Of a stretch of DNA of 64,000 bases, positions 1 through 57,262 are shown in pieces (within the stretch, counting starts at the first letter, position 1; each line of letters begins with the position of its first letter). Source of the DNA: Alphaproteobacteria bacterium (GTDB taxonomy: Bacteria > Pseudomonadota > Alphaproteobacteria > UBA9219); assembly GCA_028866275.1 (NCBI GenBank), contig JAGWIK010000005.1:42201-106200 (forward strand), in the 5' to 3' direction. The translations under genes and the position numbers were made by a program. The notes beneath the pieces were generated by a model, which worked only from the letters and a program-made list of their open reading frames with translations, was not told the origin of the DNA and did not search any database.

Positions 1-1896
1 GAAGCAAGTTCCGACCTGTACGCCATCATCTGCCAGTCCGCGCTGCCGCCGCGTATCGACGCCATCACGGGGCTACGCTCTCTCGACAACCCAAGTCTGG
101 TGCGCTTCATCGATTCCGGCGTCGTGACATGGGCCGATAACGCGCGCGCCTATGCTTTTGTTTATCAAAGACCGTTGGCCCCGCAGATGATAAACAACCT
201 TGACGAAACGCGGACGCCGCTCAGCGAAGACGCCATCCACCACCATTTTATCACGCCGATGATCGGCGCGCTGAATGCCTTGATGGTATCGGGCGTGGCG
301 CATAACGCCATCAGGCCGAATAATATTTTCTGGCGCATCGGCAACGCCGCCCCGCCGCAAATCGGCGAATGTTTGTCGACGCCCGCGGGCATGGGGCAAC
401 CTGTGGCGGTCGAACCGATAGAAAGGGCCATGGCCCTGCCTTTGGGGCGCGGCACGGGATCACATGCCGATGATTGCTATGCCTTCGGCGTCGTGCTGGC
501 TTTCCTCGTTCTGGGCCGCAACCCGTTTCAGGGCATGGACGACGCCGCGATCATTGATTTGAAAATGCAACGCGGCAGTTTCGCCGCCATTGTCGGCAAC
601 AGCCGGTTGTCGCCGGCGCATATCGAGATTTTGCGCGGGCTTCTGTCCGACGATGCGCGGCAACGATGGACGGCGTCCAATCTGGAGCAATGGTTAAACG
701 GCCGGCGCATGACGCCCAAAGGATCGGATGCCGGACGCCGCGCCACCCGTCATTTCGATTTCATGGGAAGTGAATATTGGCAAGCCGCGCCCTTGGCCGG
801 CGCCATGGCCGCCAATGTCACCGATGCCGCCAAAATTATTGAAAATGATTCTTTGGGCAAATGGCTGCGCCGGTCGTTAAACGACGAAGAACGCGCCAAT
901 GACGTCGCAAACGTCGTCAACGAATTGAAACAAAGCGGCAAAAGCAGCAGATACGAGGATCAGCTGGTCACGCGCGTGTGCATCGTTCTGGACCGTGCCG
1001 CCCCCATTCGTTACCGCGGGTTGTCGGTCATGCCCGGCGGCATCGCCCCGTTGCTGGCCGAAGCCGCCGCAACGCCGGGTTCACCCAATATCCAGCTTTT
1101 GTCCGAAATCATCGCCAGCCAATTGCCGGCCCTGTGGGTCGATATGCAAAAAGACCCGACGCCGGACCAGGTTGCCTTGATCCAAACTTTTGACCGCATG
1201 AAGGGTTTTCTGGAAAAAGCCGCGATGGGCAACGGTATCGAGCGCGTGACCTACGAACTCAACCCCGGCCTGCCGTGCCTCAGCCCCATTCTGCGCGGGC
1301 AATATGTCGCCACGCCCAAAATGTTGCTGTCGTCGCTGGAACGCGTCGCGGCAAACGGCAACCGCCCGCGCGAGCCCATCGACCGCCATATTGCCGCGTT
1401 CCTGATCGTGCGCGACAAACGCGGGGAAAACATGTTCGCGCCGATGACCGCGCCCGAAGGATCGGTCAGGCGGGGCCTCGGTCTTTTGGCTTTGTTCGCC
1501 GAACTGCAATACCGCCATGGCCCCGAAAACACGCCGCAACTGGCCGGCTGGCTGTCGCCCGTCGTCGAGCCCGCGCTGCGCCGCTTTCTCGGCAAGGCTT
1601 TGCGCGAACATTTGCAAAAACAGGCCAAGGAAGCGGTCGCCACAGGCAATCTGGGCGCGATGCTGCGCCTGATCGACGACCCGCGCCGTCTTGAAACCGA
1701 CCGGCAGGAATTCATAGCCGCGCGGCTTTTATATCTCAGCATCCAAAAAGAAATCGCCGGTCTTGAATCGACCAACCGCGACAGCGTCATGCGCGGGTCG
1801 GGCAAAGCGATGGCCGCGAATATCAGCAGCCTTCTGGCCATTATCTTAATATGCGCGGCCATTCTGCGTGCCATGGCCGGCGCACTCTTCCAATAA
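1..1896 (+). CDS. Ser/Thr kinase-like protein, probable pseudokinase with C-terminal membrane anchor (5' end cut by window)
   Basis: The reading frame is open from base 1, so the N-terminus, including any glycine loop, lies upstream; an internal GTG at 100 is not needed as a start. The visible part begins inside a kinase-like fold. The catalytic loop reads HNAIRPNN where active kinases have HRDxKPxN, so the catalytic Asp is missing, and no DFG is seen. The helix F region (DDCYAFGVVLAFLVLGRNPF) is kinase-like. About 350 unrecognised residues follow, ending in a hydrophobic segment (ISSLLAIILICAAILRAMAG) that looks like a tail anchor. I infer a membrane-anchored pseudokinase, possibly a scaffold. 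No partner gene is visible here. Confidence 0.7.
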   Translation, partial: EASSDLYAIICQSALPPRIDAITGLRSLDNPSLVRFIDSGVVTWADNARAYAFVYQRPLAPQMINNLDETRTPLSEDAIHHHFITPMIGALNALMVSGVAHNAIRPNNIFWRIGNAAPPQIGECLSTPAGMGQPVAVEPIERAMALPLGRGTGSHADDCYAFGVVLAFLVLGRNPFQGMDDAAIIDLKMQRGSFAAIVGNSRLSPAHIEILRGLLSDDARQRWTASNLEQWLNGRRMTPKGSDAGRRATRHFDFMGSEYWQAAPLAGAMAANVTDAAKIIENDSLGKWLRRSLNDEERANDVANVVNELKQSGKSSRYEDQLVTRVCIVLDRAAPIRYRGLSVMPGGIAPLLAEAAATPGSPNIQLLSEIIASQLPALWVDMQKDPTPDQVALIQTFDRMKGFLEKAAMGNGIERVTYELNPGLPCLSPILRGQYVATPKMLLSSLERVAANGNRPREPIDRHIAAFLIVRDKRGENMFAPMTAPEGSVRRGLGLLALFAELQYRHGPENTPQLAGWLSPVVEPALRRFLGKALREHLQKQAKEAVATGNLGAMLRLIDDPRRLETDRQEFIAARLLYLSIQKEIAGLESTNRDSVMRGSGKAMAANISSLLAIILICAAILRAMAGALFQ

Positions 1897-2042: not shown

Positions 2043-3977
2043 ATGGATGTTTTTCCCGTCTCTTCGCAAGCCGCATCCTCATCATGGATCGACGCCGGCA
2101 CCTATGACCGGATGTATGCCGCATCGATCAACGAACCTGAAAAATTCTGGGGCGAACAGGGGCGTTATCTGGACTGGATCAAACCCTATACCAGGGTCAA
2201 AAGCGGCGATTTTACCGGCGACGTCCAGGTCAAATGGTTCGAAGACGGCACGTTGAACGTCGCGGCCAATTGTCTGGACCGCCATCTGGCCGAGCGCGGC
2301 GATAAAACCGCTATCATATGGGAACCCGACGAAGCGACGGACGCGCCGCTGCATATCACCTATGCCGAATTGCACCGTAAAGTCGGGATATTCGCCAATG
2401 TCCTGAAACGCCACGGCGTCGTCAAAGGCGACCGCGTCGTCATTTACCTGCCGATGATTCCCGAAGCCGCCTATGCCATGCTGGCCTGCGCGCGGATAGG
2501 GGCCGTCCATTCCGTGGTGTTTGCCGGTTTTTCGCCGCACAGCCTGCGCGACCGCATCATCGATTGCGGCGCGCGGGTCGTCATCACCGCCGACGAAGCG
2601 CGGCGCGGCGGCAAGAAAACGCCATTAAAAGCCAATATGGACGAGGCCATATCGTCCTGCCCCGACGTGCGTAAATGCATCACCGTGCGTCACACGGGGG
2701 GCGTTGTGTCGTGGCAGGCCGGGCGCGACGTCTGGCTGCACGACGAGGCAGAGAAAGTTTCCAGCCTCTGTCCGGCGCAAGAAATGAACGCCGAAGACCC
2801 CTTGTTTATTTTGTACACATCGGGGTCCACCGGCACGCCCAAGGGCGTCGTGCATACCACCGGCGGATACCTGCTTTACGCCGCGCTGACCCATAAATGG
2901 GTGTTCGATTATCATGACGAAGACATTTACTGGTGCGCCGCCGATATCGGCTGGGTCACGGGCCACAGCTACATCATCTATGGGCCGCTGGCCAACGGCG
3001 CCACGACCCTGATGTATGAAGGCGTGCCCAACCACCCCGACCCGTCGCGTTTCTGGCGCATCATCGACAAGCATCAAGTCACGTTATTCTACACCGCGCC
3101 TACCGCCATTCGCGCGCTGATGCGCGAGGGCGAGGACTGGGTGCGCAAAACCGGCCGCGGTTCCTTGCGCCTGCTGGCTTCCGTCGGCGAACCCATCAAT
3201 CCCGAAGCGTGGCTGTGGTATCATCGTGAAGTCGGCGGCAACCGCTGCCCCGTTATCGACACCTGGTGGCAGACCGAAACCGGCGGCCATATGATCGCGC
3301 CCCTGCCCGGCGCTACCGCCCTGAAACCCGGATCGGCGACACGGCCCTTTTTCGGCGTCAAACCCGTTATCGTCGATACCGACGGCCATATATTGGATGG
3401 CGCCTGCGAGGGCATTTTATGCATCGACGGCCCGTGGCCCGGCATGATGCGCACGCTGTACAACAATCACGACCGTTTCGTGAAAGGCTATTTCAGCACC
3501 TATAAGGGCATGTATTTCACCGGCGACGGATGCCGCCGCGACGAAGACGGTTATTACTGGATCACGGGCCGCGTCGACGATGTCATTAACGTCGCGGGCC
3601 ATCGCTTATCCACGGCGGAAATCGAAAGCACCTGCGTGACCCATCCGCTGGTCGCCGAAGCCGCCGTCGTCGGATGTCATCACGACATCAAGGGTCAGGG
3701 CATTTATGTTTTCGTCACGCTGAAGTCAGGGGTCGACGGCAGCGACATGTTGCGCCGTGAATTAATCCATCTGGTCCGGCAAACCATCAGCCCGATCGCC
3801 ACGCCCGATTACATCCAATGGGCGCCGGGTCTGCCGAAAACGCGATCGGGCAAGATCATGCGCCGCATCTTGCGCAAAATCGCAACGGGCGAAGCCGATA
3901 ATCTGGGCGACATCTCAACCCTGGCGGATCCGTCGGTCGTCGACAGTCTGATCAAAGGCTGCCTGATTGGGAAATAG
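2043..3977 (+). CDS. acs: Acetyl-CoA synthetase (AMP-forming)
   Basis: Converts acetate, ATP and CoA to acetyl-CoA through acetyl-AMP in the cytoplasm. The 644-residue product has the length usual for Acs. It carries the adenylation P-loop [11 protein letters not shown], the core WWQTETGG, the hinge-side motif [13 protein letters not shown], and near the C-terminus [10 protein letters not shown], whose lysine is the adenylating residue and the target of regulatory acetylation in this family. I chose ATG 2043 because the alternative at 1986 adds 19 unconserved residues. The 3' end overlaps the convergent ppsR gene by 26 bases. Confidence 0.95.
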
Positions 3978-4788
3978 CTTCTTTTCTTTGCGCCAGAAGC
4001 GTCATGATCTCCGCCGCCGTTTCTTCAATCGACCGGCGCGATACGTCGATCACGGGACAGCCGAGGCGGGCAAAGAACCGCCGCGCTTCTTGCAATTCCT
4101 CGCGCACTTTTTCCGGATCGACATAGGATGTTTCCCGGTTTTCGCTTAACAGATGCAAGCGATTGCGGCGAATGGCGACAAGACTGTCGGCGTCTTTGGT
4201 CAGGCCGACGATCAACGGTTTTTTCAATTGCTTCAATTCGTCCGGCATCAGATGGCCGGGGACGAAAGGAATATTGGCGGCGCGAATGCCGCGTCCGGCC
4301 AGATAAACGCATGTCGGGGTTTTCGACGTGCGCGAGACGCCCAGAATCACCACATCGGCGTCTTGCAGCCGGTCGATGCCGTGGCCGTCATCCTGCGCCA
4401 GAGCGAAATCCATCGCATCGATACGGGCGAAATAGCCTTCGTCCAGAATATGCTGGCGCCCCGGCATATGGCTTGGATTCTTTCCGAACAGGGCCGCCAT
4501 GCCCGCCAGCACGGGCCGCAAGACGGATACGCAGGGAATGTCATTGTCGCGGCAGAAGCTTTCCAGCTGCGCCCGCAATTCCTCATCCACGAATGTGTAA
4601 AGCACAAGACCGCGGTTTTTTTGTATGCCGTCGATCACGGTTTGAAGCAGCCGCGGCGACCGTATCATGTTCCAGACATGTTCGCGGCATTCGACATCGC
4701 TGAATTGCGCCAGACAGGCGCGCGACATCGCCGCAATGGTTTCGCCGGTCGAATCCGACACCAGATGAAGATGAAAATCGACGGTCAT
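3952..4788 (-). CDS. ppsR: Pyruvate phosphate dikinase / PEP synthase regulatory protein (bifunctional kinase-phosphorylase, DUF299)
   Basis: A 278-residue member of the DUF299 family, which inactivates PEP-synthesising dikinases by ADP-dependent phosphorylation and reactivates them by phosphorolysis. It starts with the family signature [13 protein letters not shown], and GVSRTSKTP (about residue 150) is the nucleotide-binding loop. It is convergent with acs, overlapping its last 26 bases. It faces away from hemE across the putative replication origin. The Rickettsia homologue RP001 lies opposite hemE at the conserved alphaproteobacterial origin, so the placement is diagnostic. The partner dikinase is not in the window, so whether it targets PpsA or PpdK is unknown. 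Confidence 0.93.
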
Positions 4789-4837
4789 GTGCTGGGTGTT
4801 ATTTCTTCAGGAACTTTTAATCGAAAAGCGGGGATAG

Positions 4838-4846
4838 TGGGGATAA
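4838..4846 (-). promoter_or_regulatory. DnaA-like box (TTATCCCCA)
   Basis: Reads TTATCCCCA on the minus strand, one mismatch from the strong box TTATCCACA. A second copy of the GGGGATAA core occurs at 4949-4956, and a truncated GGGGATAG at 4830-4837. The repetition in one short region suggests a DnaA array rather than chance. Confidence 0.55.
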
Positions 4847-4947
4847 GTCAATCTTTATGCGTGGCGTCTTTTTTTGGTACCCGTTGCCGCTTTCTTATCC
4901 CACAACAGAAACAAGCGGGAGAAAATTTTCATCCTGTTCGTGAAAAA

Positions 4948-4956
4948 CGGGGATAA
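4948..4956 (-). promoter_or_regulatory. DnaA-like box (TTATCCCCG)
   Basis: Reads TTATCCCCG on the minus strand, two mismatches from TTATCCACA, and shares the GGGGATAA core with 4839-4846. It lies 32 bases before the perfect box at 4989. Confidence 0.45.
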
Positions 4957-4988
4957 AACGGCTTCTCTTTTTTTCCTTATTTTCCCCG

Positions 4989-4997
4989 TTATTCACA
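4989..4997 (+). promoter_or_regulatory. Perfect DnaA box TTATTCACA
   Basis: Exact match to the consensus TTATNCACA. It lies in the centre of the ppsR-hemE interval, 18 bases before the first CtrA box. In Caulobacter CtrA blocks initiation by competing with DnaA at closely spaced sites, so this spacing may be functional. Confidence 0.75.
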
Positions 4998-5015
4998 GAA
5001 AGGGTGGAACAATTA

Positions 5016-5030
5016 TTAAAATTGCCTTAA
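5016..5030 (+). promoter_or_regulatory. CtrA-binding site TTAA-N7-TTAA (origin site 1)
   Basis: Perfect TTAA, seven bases, TTAA. This is the consensus bound by phosphorylated CtrA. It lies just after the perfect DnaA box in the putative origin. The ctrA gene itself is in this window (56546-57262). Confidence 0.75.
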
Positions 5031-5173
5031 TAGATATTTACGAACAGGGTTGTCCGTTAACCGTTTATTATCAATTTAAATCATCGACAGCGAAATTCGT
5101 GGATGAAATTTGTACAATCGCTGCCTATATTTAATCCCCATTACCCCCTTGGCCAACCTACTACCTCTAACTC

Positions 5174-5188
5174 TTAATATATAATTAA
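5174..5188 (+). promoter_or_regulatory. CtrA-binding site overlapping the hemE -10 region
   Basis: Second perfect TTAA-N7-TTAA. Its spacer contains TATAAT (5180-5185 with the flanking T), which would serve as a -10 element, so bound CtrA would cover the hemE promoter. Only 10 bases separate it from the hemE start. In Caulobacter a CtrA-controlled hemE promoter also lies inside the origin. Confidence 0.7.
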
Positions 5189-5198
5189 GAAGTAAGGA

Positions 5199-6236
5199 AT
5201 GCGCGTGGACAAAACCCGTAAACCCCTTCTCGACGTGCTTCGCGGCGAGGTTCCCGAACGACTTCCCATTTGGCTGATGCGGCAAGCGGGCCGCTATCTT
5301 CCTGAATATCGGGATTTAAGGGCTAAATCTAAAAATTTCCTTAACATGTGTTTGACGCCGGCGCTTGCCACCGAAATCACGATGCAACCCATCCGCCGGT
5401 TTGGCATGGATGGCGCCATTCTATTCGCCGACATTCTTCTGATTCCGATGGCCTTGGGCCTGTCTTTGGATTTCCGCGAAGGCGAAGGCCCGGTCTTGCA
5501 GCGTGTCGCCAGCCGCGACGATCTTATGGGCCTGACTTATAACCCGGACAAAGTATTGCCGGTTTTCGAAACTGTGCGTCGCGTTAAAAACACGATGCCG
5601 GAAAAAACGGCGCTTATCGGATTCTGCGGCGCGCCCTGGACCGTCGCTTGTTATATGATCGACGGCAACAGCAAAAACGATTTTACCGCCGCCAAAGAAT
5701 GGGTGCGCGAAAAACCGCAGGATCTTGACGCGCTGATCGCCATACTGATCGACGCCAGTGAAAAATACCTGTCCGCGCAAATCGAAGCCGGGGCCGAAGC
5801 GGTGCAAATTTTCGACAGCTGGGCTGGATTGATTTCCGGTGACGATTTTACCCGCTTCATCATCGGCCCCACACGGGAACTTGTCAGCCGTATCAAGAAA
5901 AACTATCCCGACATTCCGATCATCGGCTTTCCCCGTGAAGCCGGCGATGATTACGAACCCTATATCCGCCAAACCGGCGTCGACGCCCTGAGCATCGATA
6001 CCAAGGTCGATATTCAATGGGCGAAACGGCAATTACAGCCCGTCAAACCATTGCAAGGCAATCTCGATCCCGATCTTCTGGTGCGCGGCGGCGAGGATAT
6101 GAAAAATGCGGCTCGCCACATCATATCCACGCTGGGCCCGCGCCATATCTTCAATCTGGGCCACGGCGTCGTGCCGCAAACCCCGCCGGAGCATGTCGCC
6201 GAACTGGTTTCCATCATCAGGAATTTTTCCGCATGA
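5199..6236 (+). CDS. hemE: Uroporphyrinogen decarboxylase
   Basis: Decarboxylates the four acetate side chains of uroporphyrinogen III to give coproporphyrinogen III. The 345-residue protein has the signature PIWLMRQAGRYLPEYR (residues 23-38), with the substrate-binding arginines, and GFCGAPWTVACYMIDG. The annotated ATG touches the AAGGA Shine-Dalgarno, so the GTG at 5205, six bases after it, may be the true start. It is first in a hemE-hemH-hemJ operon and overlaps hemH by ATGA. Its promoter region coincides with a CtrA box in the putative origin. Confidence 0.97.
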   Translation: MRVDKTRKPLLDVLRGEVPERLPIWLMRQAGRYLPEYRDLRAKSKNFLNMCLTPALATEITMQPIRRFGMDGAILFADILLIPMALGLSLDFREGEGPVLQRVASRDDLMGLTYNPDKVLPVFETVRRVKNTMPEKTALIGFCGAPWTVACYMIDGNSKNDFTAAKEWVREKPQDLDALIAILIDASEKYLSAQIEAGAEAVQIFDSWAGLISGDDFTRFIIGPTRELVSRIKKNYPDIPIIGFPREAGDDYEPYIRQTGVDALSIDTKVDIQWAKRQLQPVKPLQGNLDPDLLVRGGEDMKNAARHIISTLGPRHIFNLGHGVVPQTPPEHVAELVSIIRNFSA

Positions 6237-15082: not shown

Positions 15083-15826
15083 CTATAGATGGTCATGAAT
15101 CAGACAGTCGAGCATCGCTTCTTCGTTAGGCGCCGCGGCGACTTTTATTTGCCGCCACGGCAGAATATCCAGAATATCCGCGACCGCCTGACTTAAACCC
15201 GTGGCGGTGACGTCGCGGCAGGCCTCGGTCAGGTTTTCCCGCATCAATATCTCCGTCAGCAACGTCGCGCTGCGCGGCGAGAAAACAGGGACAGACGCGA
15301 TGCCGCCGGATGACAAAGCCTCGCGCGTTGCGGGCGCAAAGCCGGTTGCCGCCACCGCAGCGTAAACGCGCCACGCCGTCACGTCAAATCCGGCCTCGAT
15401 CAGGGTGTTTTCCATCGCTTCCCGCGCAACAGCGCCCGCAATATGCAGCAAAGACCTGGACGGCGAGGGCGGATGCGCGGCGATAACCTGCCGCGCCAAC
15501 GCCGCTCCATCCTTATCGCCGCATATGACATGCGAAAAGCCCGCGCGCCGCGCGGCATGGCCTGTTACCGCGCCCACGCAAAAACAGGGCAGGCCGGTTA
15601 ATCCGGCCAGCTCGCCCGCACGGGCGGCGAGGCTGTCGGGCGCGTGCGCCGAGGTTATCAGCACGGCGGCGAAGGATCCGGCGGGACGGGGCGTGTCAAG
15701 CCTATCGATGCGCAACAACGGGTCGATAAGGCAATCGAACCCATGTTGCTGCAGCAAGGCGGCCCAGCGTTCGCTGGCGGTGCGGGGCCGCGTCAGAAGA
15801 ATTTTTTTTGCGCCGCCGCGTTGCAT
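15083..15826 (-). CDS. hemD: Uroporphyrinogen-III synthase
   Basis: Cyclises hydroxymethylbilane with inversion of ring D to form uroporphyrinogen III. The 247-residue product has the two Rossmann-like halves of the family, with weak overall conservation as usual for HemD: ILLTRPRTASERWAALL at the start, VLITSAHAPDSL, and VPVFSPRSATLL in the second half. The ATG shares one base with the hemC stop (TGATG), indicating coupling; a GTG one codon earlier is also in frame. Gene order supports the call strongly. Confidence 0.93.
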   Translation of the reverse strand: MQRGGAKKILLTRPRTASERWAALLQQHGFDCLIDPLLRIDRLDTPRPAGSFAAVLITSAHAPDSLAARAGELAGLTGLPCFCVGAVTGHAARRAGFSHVICGDKDGAALARQVIAAHPPSPSRSLLHIAGAVAREAMENTLIEAGFDVTAWRVYAAVAATGFAPATREALSSGGIASVPVFSPRSATLLTEILMRENLTEACRDVTATGLSQAVADILDILPWRQIKVAAAPNEEAMLDCLIHDHL

Positions 15827-25185: not shown

Positions 25186-25811
25186 ACGCCGAACAGGAAG
25201 ATTTTATAAAATCACACGCCGTTTCCCGTGAAACTATCCACAGCCTGTCCACATATGAAAAAATGCTGGTCGAATGGAGCGGCAAATTCAATCTGGTTGC
25301 CGCCAGCACCCTGCCCCATATCTGGACGCGCCATTTTGCCGACAGCGCGCAATTGGCGCGCTATATACCGGCCAATGCCAAAAATCTTGCCGATATGGGT
25401 TCGGGCGCGGGTTTTCCGGGTCTGGTTCTGGCCATCATGCGGCCCGATATCGACATTACCCTGATCGAAGCGACCGGTAAAAAGGCCGATTTTCTGCAGG
25501 CCGTTATTGATGCGCTGGAATTGAAGGCCAGCATTCGCCGCGCCCGTATTGAAGATATTCATGATCTGCGCGTCGATGTGGTGACGGCGCGGGCGCTCAA
25601 AGCGCTGCCGGAATTGATGAAATATGCCAGCCGGTTGATTCATAAAGACAGCCTGTGCCTTTTTCCCAAAGGCCGCAATGCCGTACAGGAATTGACAGAC
25701 GCCGCCAAATATTGGACATTCGAATGCGAGACTCACCCCAGCCTCAGCGACGATTCCGGTTCTGTGCTTGTGATTAAAAAACCGGTTTATAAATCGTGGC
25801 GCAAGTCTTGA
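25182..25811 (+). CDS. rsmG: 16S rRNA (guanine527-N7)-methyltransferase
   Basis: Methylates G527 of 16S rRNA. The 209-residue product has the SAM-binding motif [17 protein letters not shown], then [13 protein letters not shown] and [12 protein letters not shown], all typical of RsmG. It overlaps mnmG by ATGA and precedes parA, the order conserved near many bacterial origins. A parS-like palindrome lies inside its first codons (25221-25234). Confidence 0.95.
25221..25234. promoter_or_regulatory. parS: parS-like centromere site inside rsmG
   Basis: GTTTCCCGTGAAAC differs at one base from the perfect 14-base core GTTTCACGTGAAAC, which is recognised by chromosomal ParB proteins across bacteria. 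It lies 600 bases before parA and about 20 kb from the putative origin, a normal position for parS. Confidence 0.75.
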
Positions 25812-56545: not shown

Positions 56546-57262
56546 TTATGCTGTTTTGGCGGCTGTCGGGCGGGCGTTTTCACCGCCGACAGGATCGCGC
56601 AGCACATAGCCGCGGCCCCACACGGTTTCGATGTAATTGTCGCCGCCCGCGGCATTGGCCAATTTCTTGCGCAATTTGCATACGAACACGTCGATGATTT
56701 TCAATTCGGGTTCGTCCATGCCGCCGTATAAATGATTCAGGAACATTTCCTTGGTCAGCGTCGTGCCTTTGCGCAGCGACAGCAATTCCAGAATGCCATA
56801 TTCCTTGCCGGTCAGATGCAACGGTGCGCCGTCGACTTCGACCGTGCGGGTATCGAGATTGACGATCAGCTTGCCGGTGCGGATGACGCTGTCGGAATGG
56901 CCCTTCGAACGGCGGATGATGGCGTGGATGCGCGCGACCAATTCGCGGCGGTCGAACGGCTTGGTCAGATAATCATCGGCGCCGAAGCCCAGGCCCTTAA
57001 TCTTGTTGTCGAGTTCGGACAGGCCGGACAGGATAAGGATCGGGGTGGTGACGCGCGCGGCGCGCAGGCGGCGCAACACTTCGTAGCCGTCGATGTCGGG
57101 CAGCATCAGGTCGAGGATGATGATGTCGTAATCGTAAATTTTGCCGATTTCCAGACCGTCTTCGCCCAAATCGGTGGTATCGACGATGAAGCCTTCGGCC
57201 TGCAGCATCAATTCGATGCTCTTGGCTACCGAGGTATCATCTTCAACAAGCAGAACGCGCAT
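56546..57262 (-). CDS. ctrA: Cell-cycle master response regulator CtrA
   Basis: OmpR-type regulator that, when phosphorylated, binds TTAA-N7-TTAA sites to control cell-cycle genes and the origin. The 238-residue product begins [20 protein letters not shown], has the phosphoacceptor Asp in [10 protein letters not shown] (D51), [20 protein letters not shown], and the winged helix [23 protein letters not shown]. The DNA-binding region is almost identical to Caulobacter CtrA. It has two imperfect CtrA half-sites upstream (57299-57336), which suggests autoregulation. The putative CtrA-bound origin lies about 52 kb away. Confidence 0.97.

Follow-up and report, generated by a model that had tools for sequence, protein, structure and literature searches.

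The 410-base interval that separates the divergent genes ppsR and hemE (positions 4789-5198) is very probably the chromosomal replication origin (oriC) of a UBA9219-lineage alphaproteobacterium, at which DnaA would load and melt an AT-rich stretch and CtrA, bound 27 nt from the main DnaA box, would block this process. The window, by which we mean the whole 64-kb stretch of DNA that was analysed, covers bases 42201-106200 of contig C9 (106,200 bp) in a genome of 2.19 Mb across 78 contigs. Its motifs and boundary genes suggest that the interval is probably an oriC of the known alphaproteobacterial type located between hemE and a COG1806 gene (here ppsR). The original prediction of an origin at this place is supported by the gene neighbourhood, by a single strong match in the genome to a conserved element (model R1, described below), by the adjacency of this element to hemE among relatives and by a stretch of low stability.

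By analogy with the Caulobacter origin Cori, both DnaA and CtrA would bind in the interval, which would be melted, loaded with helicase and subject to repression. In this scheme DnaA would occupy the main TTATTCACA box together with the weaker TTATCCC/TCCCC boxes, extend to the AT-rich stretch next to hemE and melt it, and phosphorylated CtrA at the TTAA-N7-TTAA site next to the main box would block the DnaA step, the regulator being supplied from a gene 51 kb away. Repression by CtrA, which is argued from this analogy, is the less certain half of the explanation, and the CtrA-type site could regulate hemE transcription instead or as well.

DnaA boxes and the CtrA-type site

The G+C content of the interval was 0.385, compared with 0.597 for the window. 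It had been described as lying between a DUF299 gene (ppsR) and hemE, and both gene assignments were borne out by the family models NF003742, PF03618 and TIGR01464 (Table 1). Searches of the window with Rfam at gathering thresholds and with a tRNA scan returned no matches. The window also contains a 598-aa open reading frame at 100-1896 (+) with a protein-kinase-like region that scored below the Pfam cut-off.

Table 1. Positions in the window of the predicted oriC, its elements and the genes discussed
Feature	Positions	Strand	Basis or remark
Predicted oriC (ppsR/hemE spacer)	4789..5198	.	Gene calls and motifs; pieces kept across genus
ppsR (DUF299/COG1806 kinase-pyrophosphorylase), left boundary	3952..4788	-	PF03618 305 bits, NF003742 326 bits
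hemE, right boundary	5199..6236	+	TIGR01464 390.7 bits vs cut-off 303
TTATCCCC box	4839..4846	-	With next base TTATCCCCA; includes W-box word TCCCCA
TTATCCCA box	4895..4902	+	Motif match; place unconserved in genus alignment
TTATCCCC box	4949..4956	-	Within block that is CTGTGAAAAAC-GGGATAAAA in relatives; GGATA invariant
Main DnaA box TTATTCACA	4989..4997	+	Next base G; relatives have TTATNCACAG or a near match
CtrA-type site TTAA-N7-TTAA	5016..5030	.	Starts 27 nt after DnaA box start
Weaker overlapping match TTAA-N7-TTAC, giving a third half-site 11 bp further along	5027..5041	.	38 nt from box
Model R1 match (box, CTA-rich tract, AT-rich stretch)	5113..5197	+	43 bits, E 6.6e-11 over 2.19 Mb
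Weak box TAATCCCCA (two mismatches)	5132..5140	+	Closest box to putative melting stretch; largely kept in genus
CTA-rich tract CTACTACCTCTA	5158..5169	+	DnaA-trio-like, short of published rule
AT-rich low-stability stretch, likely unwinding element	5165..5194	.	Includes near-palindrome CTTAATATATAATTAAG (5173-5189)
ctrA, predicted regulator	56546..57262	-	NF045991 424.8 bits vs cut-off 350

One TTATTCACA, three TTATCCC and two TCCCCA words were counted in the interval, several of them conserved, and the original prediction of one perfect DnaA box and several further ones was thereby confirmed at 4989 (+) and, with TTATCCC boxes, at 4839, 4895 and 4949. The sequence TGGGGATAA at 4838-4846 was invariant in the seven aligned spacers of the genus. 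The word TTATNCACA occurred 33 times in the 2.19-Mb genome, so that about 0.006 copies would be expected per 410 bases where one was observed, and the copy at 4989 was the only one within the 64-kb window. Since the reversed pattern, used as a control, occurred 21 times in the genome, the single TTATTCACA box carries little weight by itself, and conservation of the putative sites is stronger support than motif counts.

A conserved minus-strand block at 4936-4956 (CTGTGAAAAAC-GGGATAAAA in relatives) and the main DnaA box lie opposite each other in an imperfect inverted repeat (4927-4961 and 4975-5009, 74%), and the first half of this block is degenerate in the window.

The two perfect TTAA-N7-TTAA sites of the original prediction were both present, at 5016 and 5174. 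Their reading as CtrA boxes is supported for the former, which is conserved, and is weak for the latter, where TTAATATATAATTAA was perfect in only two of the seven genus spacers (the window and L014) and the place was otherwise occupied by varying AT-rich sequence. We therefore rejected 5174 as a conserved CtrA site; this match is more likely part of the putative unwinding stretch.

The distance from the start of the DnaA box to the TTAA-N7-TTAA site at 5016 and its counterparts was exactly 27 nt in all seven aligned genus spacers (own included), six of which had a perfect site, where up to one mismatch was allowed for the CtrA-type site and up to two mismatches from TTATNCACAG for the DnaA box. 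An eighth member of the genus (G004), found via model R1, had a one-mismatch site at 26 nt. In the aligned block, mean column identity was 0.96 for the half-sites, 0.84 for the box and 0.38 for the 35 other columns, but the half-site columns had been chosen for matching, and the fairer control is a shuffle test over every offset. In 3000 shuffles, a common offset was reached by at most two of the seven spacers with up to one mismatch and by at most one with a perfect site, compared with the observed seven and six. Shuffling leaves shared descent in, and the low identity of the other block columns indicates that the aligned genus spacers have diverged.

Other spacings were found among the relatives. 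The overlapping weaker site at 38 nt was present with one mismatch in five of the seven genus spacers (L012, L013, L014, L017 and L018), and in genus g2 the spacing was 38 nt in all six loci (L026, L028, L029, L032, L172 and L177; the last two were brought in by model R1), with four perfect sites. The difference between 38 and 27 nt is 11 nt, approximately one helical turn. Two other members of the family had sites at 29 nt (g6, perfect) and 22 nt (g7, one mismatch). No CtrA-type site at such a spacing was found in L019, L020, L027 or L036, although L027 has a perfect one elsewhere in its spacer, and such sites at conserved spacing were absent from the family genera g4, g5 and g8 and from the two other families of the order; eight spacers of families f2 and f3 that were counted contained no N7 site. 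The ctrA gene was found above the cut-off in 28 of the 33 genomes of the order. In the own genome, two GcrA-family matches and the single match to the DnaA C-terminal domain sit on contigs other than that of the window.

We also compared the seven-base gap with other gap lengths. The window contained three TTAA-N7-TTAA sites, two of them within the interval. Spacers of the own genus had nine N7 sites vs two for nine other gaps together, other members of the family had three vs three, and other families had none vs one, while 17 N7 sites were found in 15 of 80 named loci of the class vs eight for the nine other gaps (L042, among the named loci, is apparently the same contig as the G009 one and thus not independent). 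When a trailing C or a leading G was required, the named loci had 19 N7 sites vs three for eleven other gaps and the other spacers had six vs four. In whole contigs, N7 ranked first among the gaps in four sets out of seven (own C9, G002, G005 and G029), and it tied or lost in the remaining ones (G025, G028 and G010, the last with N11 commoner); the preference thus extends beyond the spacer. A pattern of ATNCACAG, 17-28 bases and TTAA-N7-TTAA had 14 matches in the 33 genomes, nine of them at model R1 matches, and its reversed form had two.

TTAA-N7-TTAA sites with a strong preference for N7 were also observed upstream of hemE in the named loci L052, L056, L062, L065, L071, L073, L079, L084, L086, L088, L096, L101, L106 and L108, most of which belong to genera of Hyphomicrobiales, a group in which the S. 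meliloti origin is reported to lack a CtrA site.

The TTAA words could alternatively be helically phased for DNA bending or for another protein and not form a CtrA site at all, which we regard as unlikely. An N7 gap does amount to an 11-bp period, with half-sites at 27, 38 and 49 nt, and families f2 and f3 possess ctrA yet have no site in the spacers counted; the word is nevertheless the CtrA consensus of PMC4285127, ctrA is present in the window, and N7 is favoured in the named loci of the class too.

Under the reading of the word as a CtrA site, the DnaA box and the CtrA site may form a rigid module in which the spacing can shift only by whole helical turns (27 or 38 nt) and CtrA always stays on the same DNA face relative to DnaA, a suggestion that we put forward tentatively and consider rather less probable than its absence. 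If it is true, CtrA-gated origins extend to a lineage far from Caulobacter, and many more of them would be marked by the N7-specific sites found in hemE-ppsR spacers of other alphaproteobacteria. The fixed distance between DnaA box and CtrA-type site is the part that a specialist may not expect; none was seen in the literature searched, and we make no claim that it is absent from print. It can be written as a rule, TTATNCACAG-N17-TTAA-N7-TTAA, describing a predicted CtrA-gated origin in a bacterium other than Caulobacter, and if CtrA binds the interval, one can test directly how old the control of replication by CtrA is.

A conserved element beside hemE

The last 85 bases before hemE comprise TTTAATCCCCA, the CTA-rich tract and the AT-rich near-palindrome, all with counterparts in relatives, and this combination of box, CTA-rich tract and AT-rich stretch was missed by the original prediction. 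Model R1, which was built from 23 relatives with the own genome left out, gave one strong match in the own genome, the next best having an E-value of 0.127. Across the order, 29 of 33 genomes matched (own included; E <= 0.01), and the best match adjoined hemE in 28 of these, the other one being G001, in which it lay between ppsR and rho. A second, weaker match in G029 was beside neither hemE nor ppsR.

Sequences for the model came from 19 of the 33 genomes. Among the 14 that contributed none, ten matched, nine of them beside hemE, and six of these nine had no ppsR in the fetched stretch (that of G015 ends at a contig end). For five of the six, no ppsR was found in the genome, which indicates that the element goes with hemE. 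No R1 match was obtained in G003 (own genus, 99% complete), G008, G011 or G017, where scoring covered 133 of 311 first-look candidates in G003 and 133 of 148 in G017.

Stability was scanned with nearest-neighbour energies. Bases 5175-5194 formed the second least stable 20-mer of the window and 5165-5194 the fourth least stable 30-mer, and with 50-base windows the AT-rich stretch was outside the top six. The second CtrA box of the original prediction is contained in the near-palindrome at 5173-5189. Shuffling the interval gave a score as high as that of the CTA tract in 2.8% of cases, and we rejected a reading of the tract as DnaA-trios because the longest run in the window is two, whereas the published rule asks for three or more no further than 16 bases from a box. 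With a permissive box, eight of 28 spacers reached three trios; for six of them, shuffles did so at frequencies of 0.12-0.36.

The ppsR gene was found in 38 of 59 genomes (own included), and hemE was divergent beside it in 27 of the 30 loci that were fetched from these 38 matches (own included). An origin-like spacer was kept between ppsR and rho in G001 (C120:30941-34741, L018), with hemE not adjoining; rho came directly before ppsR in G003 (C6:39344-43147, L023); and in G029 the R1 match beside hemE was 38 kb from ppsR. Among 80 named hemE loci, 71 had a divergent ppsR, and one of the other nine had too little flank. The statement of the original prediction that the origins of Caulobacter and Rickettsia are likewise beside hemE agrees with PMC1914354.

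A spacer of this kind might also be an ordinary divergent promoter, with DnaA and CtrA regulating the transcription of hemE and ppsR and replication starting elsewhere. We consider this quite improbable: the GC-skew minimum is 10.5 kb away and the upstream region of a gcrA-family gene shows that a DnaA-box cluster can occur without an origin-like element, but the CTA-rich and AT-rich stretch is conserved with one strong match in the genome, the element follows hemE where ppsR is missing and follows ppsR in G001 where rho takes the place of hemE, and the same gene pair flanks the origins of Caulobacter and Rickettsia (PMC1914354).

The region upstream of the gcrA-family gene (C69:86910-87413) has three perfect TTATNCACA within 134 bases (C69:86611-86744, locus L146), the densest cluster among the 33 of the genome; the ppsR/hemE spacer has one perfect box. 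An origin upstream of gcrA was rejected because the skew stays positive there and neither CTACTA nor an R1 match was found. DnaA activates gcrA in Caulobacter, and the cluster is probably the gcrA promoter. No second region comparable with the spacer, which has the single strong R1 match, was found in the genome in a scan that covered R1 matches and clusters of perfect boxes.

GC skew and gene order around the interval

The cumulative GC skew of C9 had its minimum at position 15,621 of the window (~15.6 kb), 10.5 kb towards hemE, and the third-position skew corrected for gene strand changed sign ~12 kb from the spacer. The original prediction had expected the skew inflection at the interval itself and would have taken one elsewhere as a refutation, and the result goes partly against it: the minimum is displaced, but its position varies among relatives and at least one other local minimum exists in the genome. 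In relatives (plus denoting the hemE side), the minimum was at +0.3 kb in G025, +14.5 kb in G005, -19 kb in G028 (120 of 135 kb read) and -55 kb in G010, and G002 had a local minimum at +17.8 kb with the lowest point of its contig at the far end. In G029, for which 20 stretches of a 1.83-Mb contig were sampled, the skew went from slightly negative to slightly positive between 200 and 230 kb and turned back near 0.9 Mb, the R1 match being at 245 kb. GC skew was thus rejected as a fine origin locator, since it is too unstable in this group and disagrees plainly in G010. A second local skew minimum was also observed at ~109.7 kb of own contig C28, with no TTATNCACA within ~69 kb and no R1 match.

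An eight-gene block with ctrA at +42.3 to +51.7 kb (window 47.5-57.3 kb) was mirror-imaged at -41.9 to -51.4 kb in the congener G002. The mirror axis was ~+0.2 kb from the R1 match in the comparison with G002 and ~+2.3 kb in that with G005 (six genes), and the mirrored block kept its distance from the spacer (~51 kb in G002 and 47 kb in G005). Genes closer to the spacer have not changed sides, so the arrangement calls for two or more nested inversions, or for a move combined with an inversion. In bacteria, the usual inversions are those symmetric about the origin (PMC9584773), and this mirror-image block, a single case, gives mild support to the placement of the origin; in G010, G025 and G028 the genes were too few or too scattered for such a comparison.

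The genes at +6 to +15 kb (window 11.3-20.6 kb) are on the hemE side here but on the ppsR side in both G002 and G005, which shows that the stretch was moved, and the move may contribute to the shifted skew minimum, leaving the negative skew of the hemE-rho segment unaccounted for. A true origin at the skew minimum, 10-20 kb from the spacer in the hemE direction, with the hemE spacer as a relic or an initiation-control site, has very little probability and was rejected: the window, G005 and, locally, G002 have their minimum on the hemE side, but the window has no perfect box outside the spacer and the genome no other strong R1 match, the minimum falls at 0.3 kb in G025 and 55 kb on the other side in G010, and the stretch concerned is rearranged.

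The rest of the window had been described as origin-proximal in gene content, of which rho, mnmG and a ParB-family gene were present, with rsmG in addition; the ParA-like gene scored below family cut-offs, and the parS that had been listed was not recovered. Within the window, no site came within two mismatches of the canonical 16-mer, and the 12-base core was at chance level. One sequence at the mnmG-rsmG junction near parAB (25222-25233, TTTCCCGTGAAA) is one mismatch from the parS core, a match at chance level in the scan.

Comparison with known origins

Cori of Caulobacter and the predicted origin of Rickettsia are located between hemE and a COG1806 gene (PMC1914354). The interval resembles Cori of Caulobacter crescentus, which lies between hemE and CC0001 (COG1806), in its boundary genes and AT-rich spacer (PMC1914354) and in having the W-box word TCCCCA and the CtrA consensus TTAA-N7-TTAA (PMC4285127, PMC4468827). 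It differs from Cori, which has five CtrA sites, in having two perfect matches, one of them conserved, and its main box is TTATTCACA, unlike the TGATCCACA G-boxes of Cori. CtrA binds Cori and inhibits DnaA binding there (PMC4285127). On either strand of the interval, no IHF-type site was found with the general patterns WATCA-N4-6-TTR and WATCA-N5-WTR.

The interval is also similar to the origins predicted in silico for Rickettsia, Wolbachia and Ehrlichia, which are AT-rich spacers adjacent to hemE, most of them with DnaA and CtrA words (PMC1914354). In Wolbachia, Ehrlichia and Anaplasma, COG1253 takes the place of ppsR, and the available part of that paper states no fixed DnaA-CtrA spacing (PMC1914354).

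As in the BUS arrangement (PMC8287927), a weak box, CTA triplets and an AT-rich stretch follow one another in order beside hemE. Under the BUS rule, a DnaA box has three or more DnaA-trios no further than 16 bp away (PMC8287927), whereas the window shows no run of three or more triplets at that distance from any box.

Not all members of the class have CtrA bound at the origin. Sinorhizobium meliloti is a CtrA-bearing alphaproteobacterium too, yet its chromosomal origin is reported to have neither a CtrA motif nor CtrA binding (PMC4433202), and Brucella CtrA is likewise cited as not binding the origin of that bacterium (PMC2877005). A 2015 review considered CtrA sites to be unseen in origins other than that of Caulobacter and possibly that of Rickettsia (PMC4468827). 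CtrA sites at further origins have been reported from in silico analysis (PMC1914354) and from ChIP in Hyphomonas (PMC7200025). The interval is like Hyphomonas neptunium in this respect, in which ChIP-seq placed CtrA binding beside the origin (PMC7200025), the site here being a predicted one.
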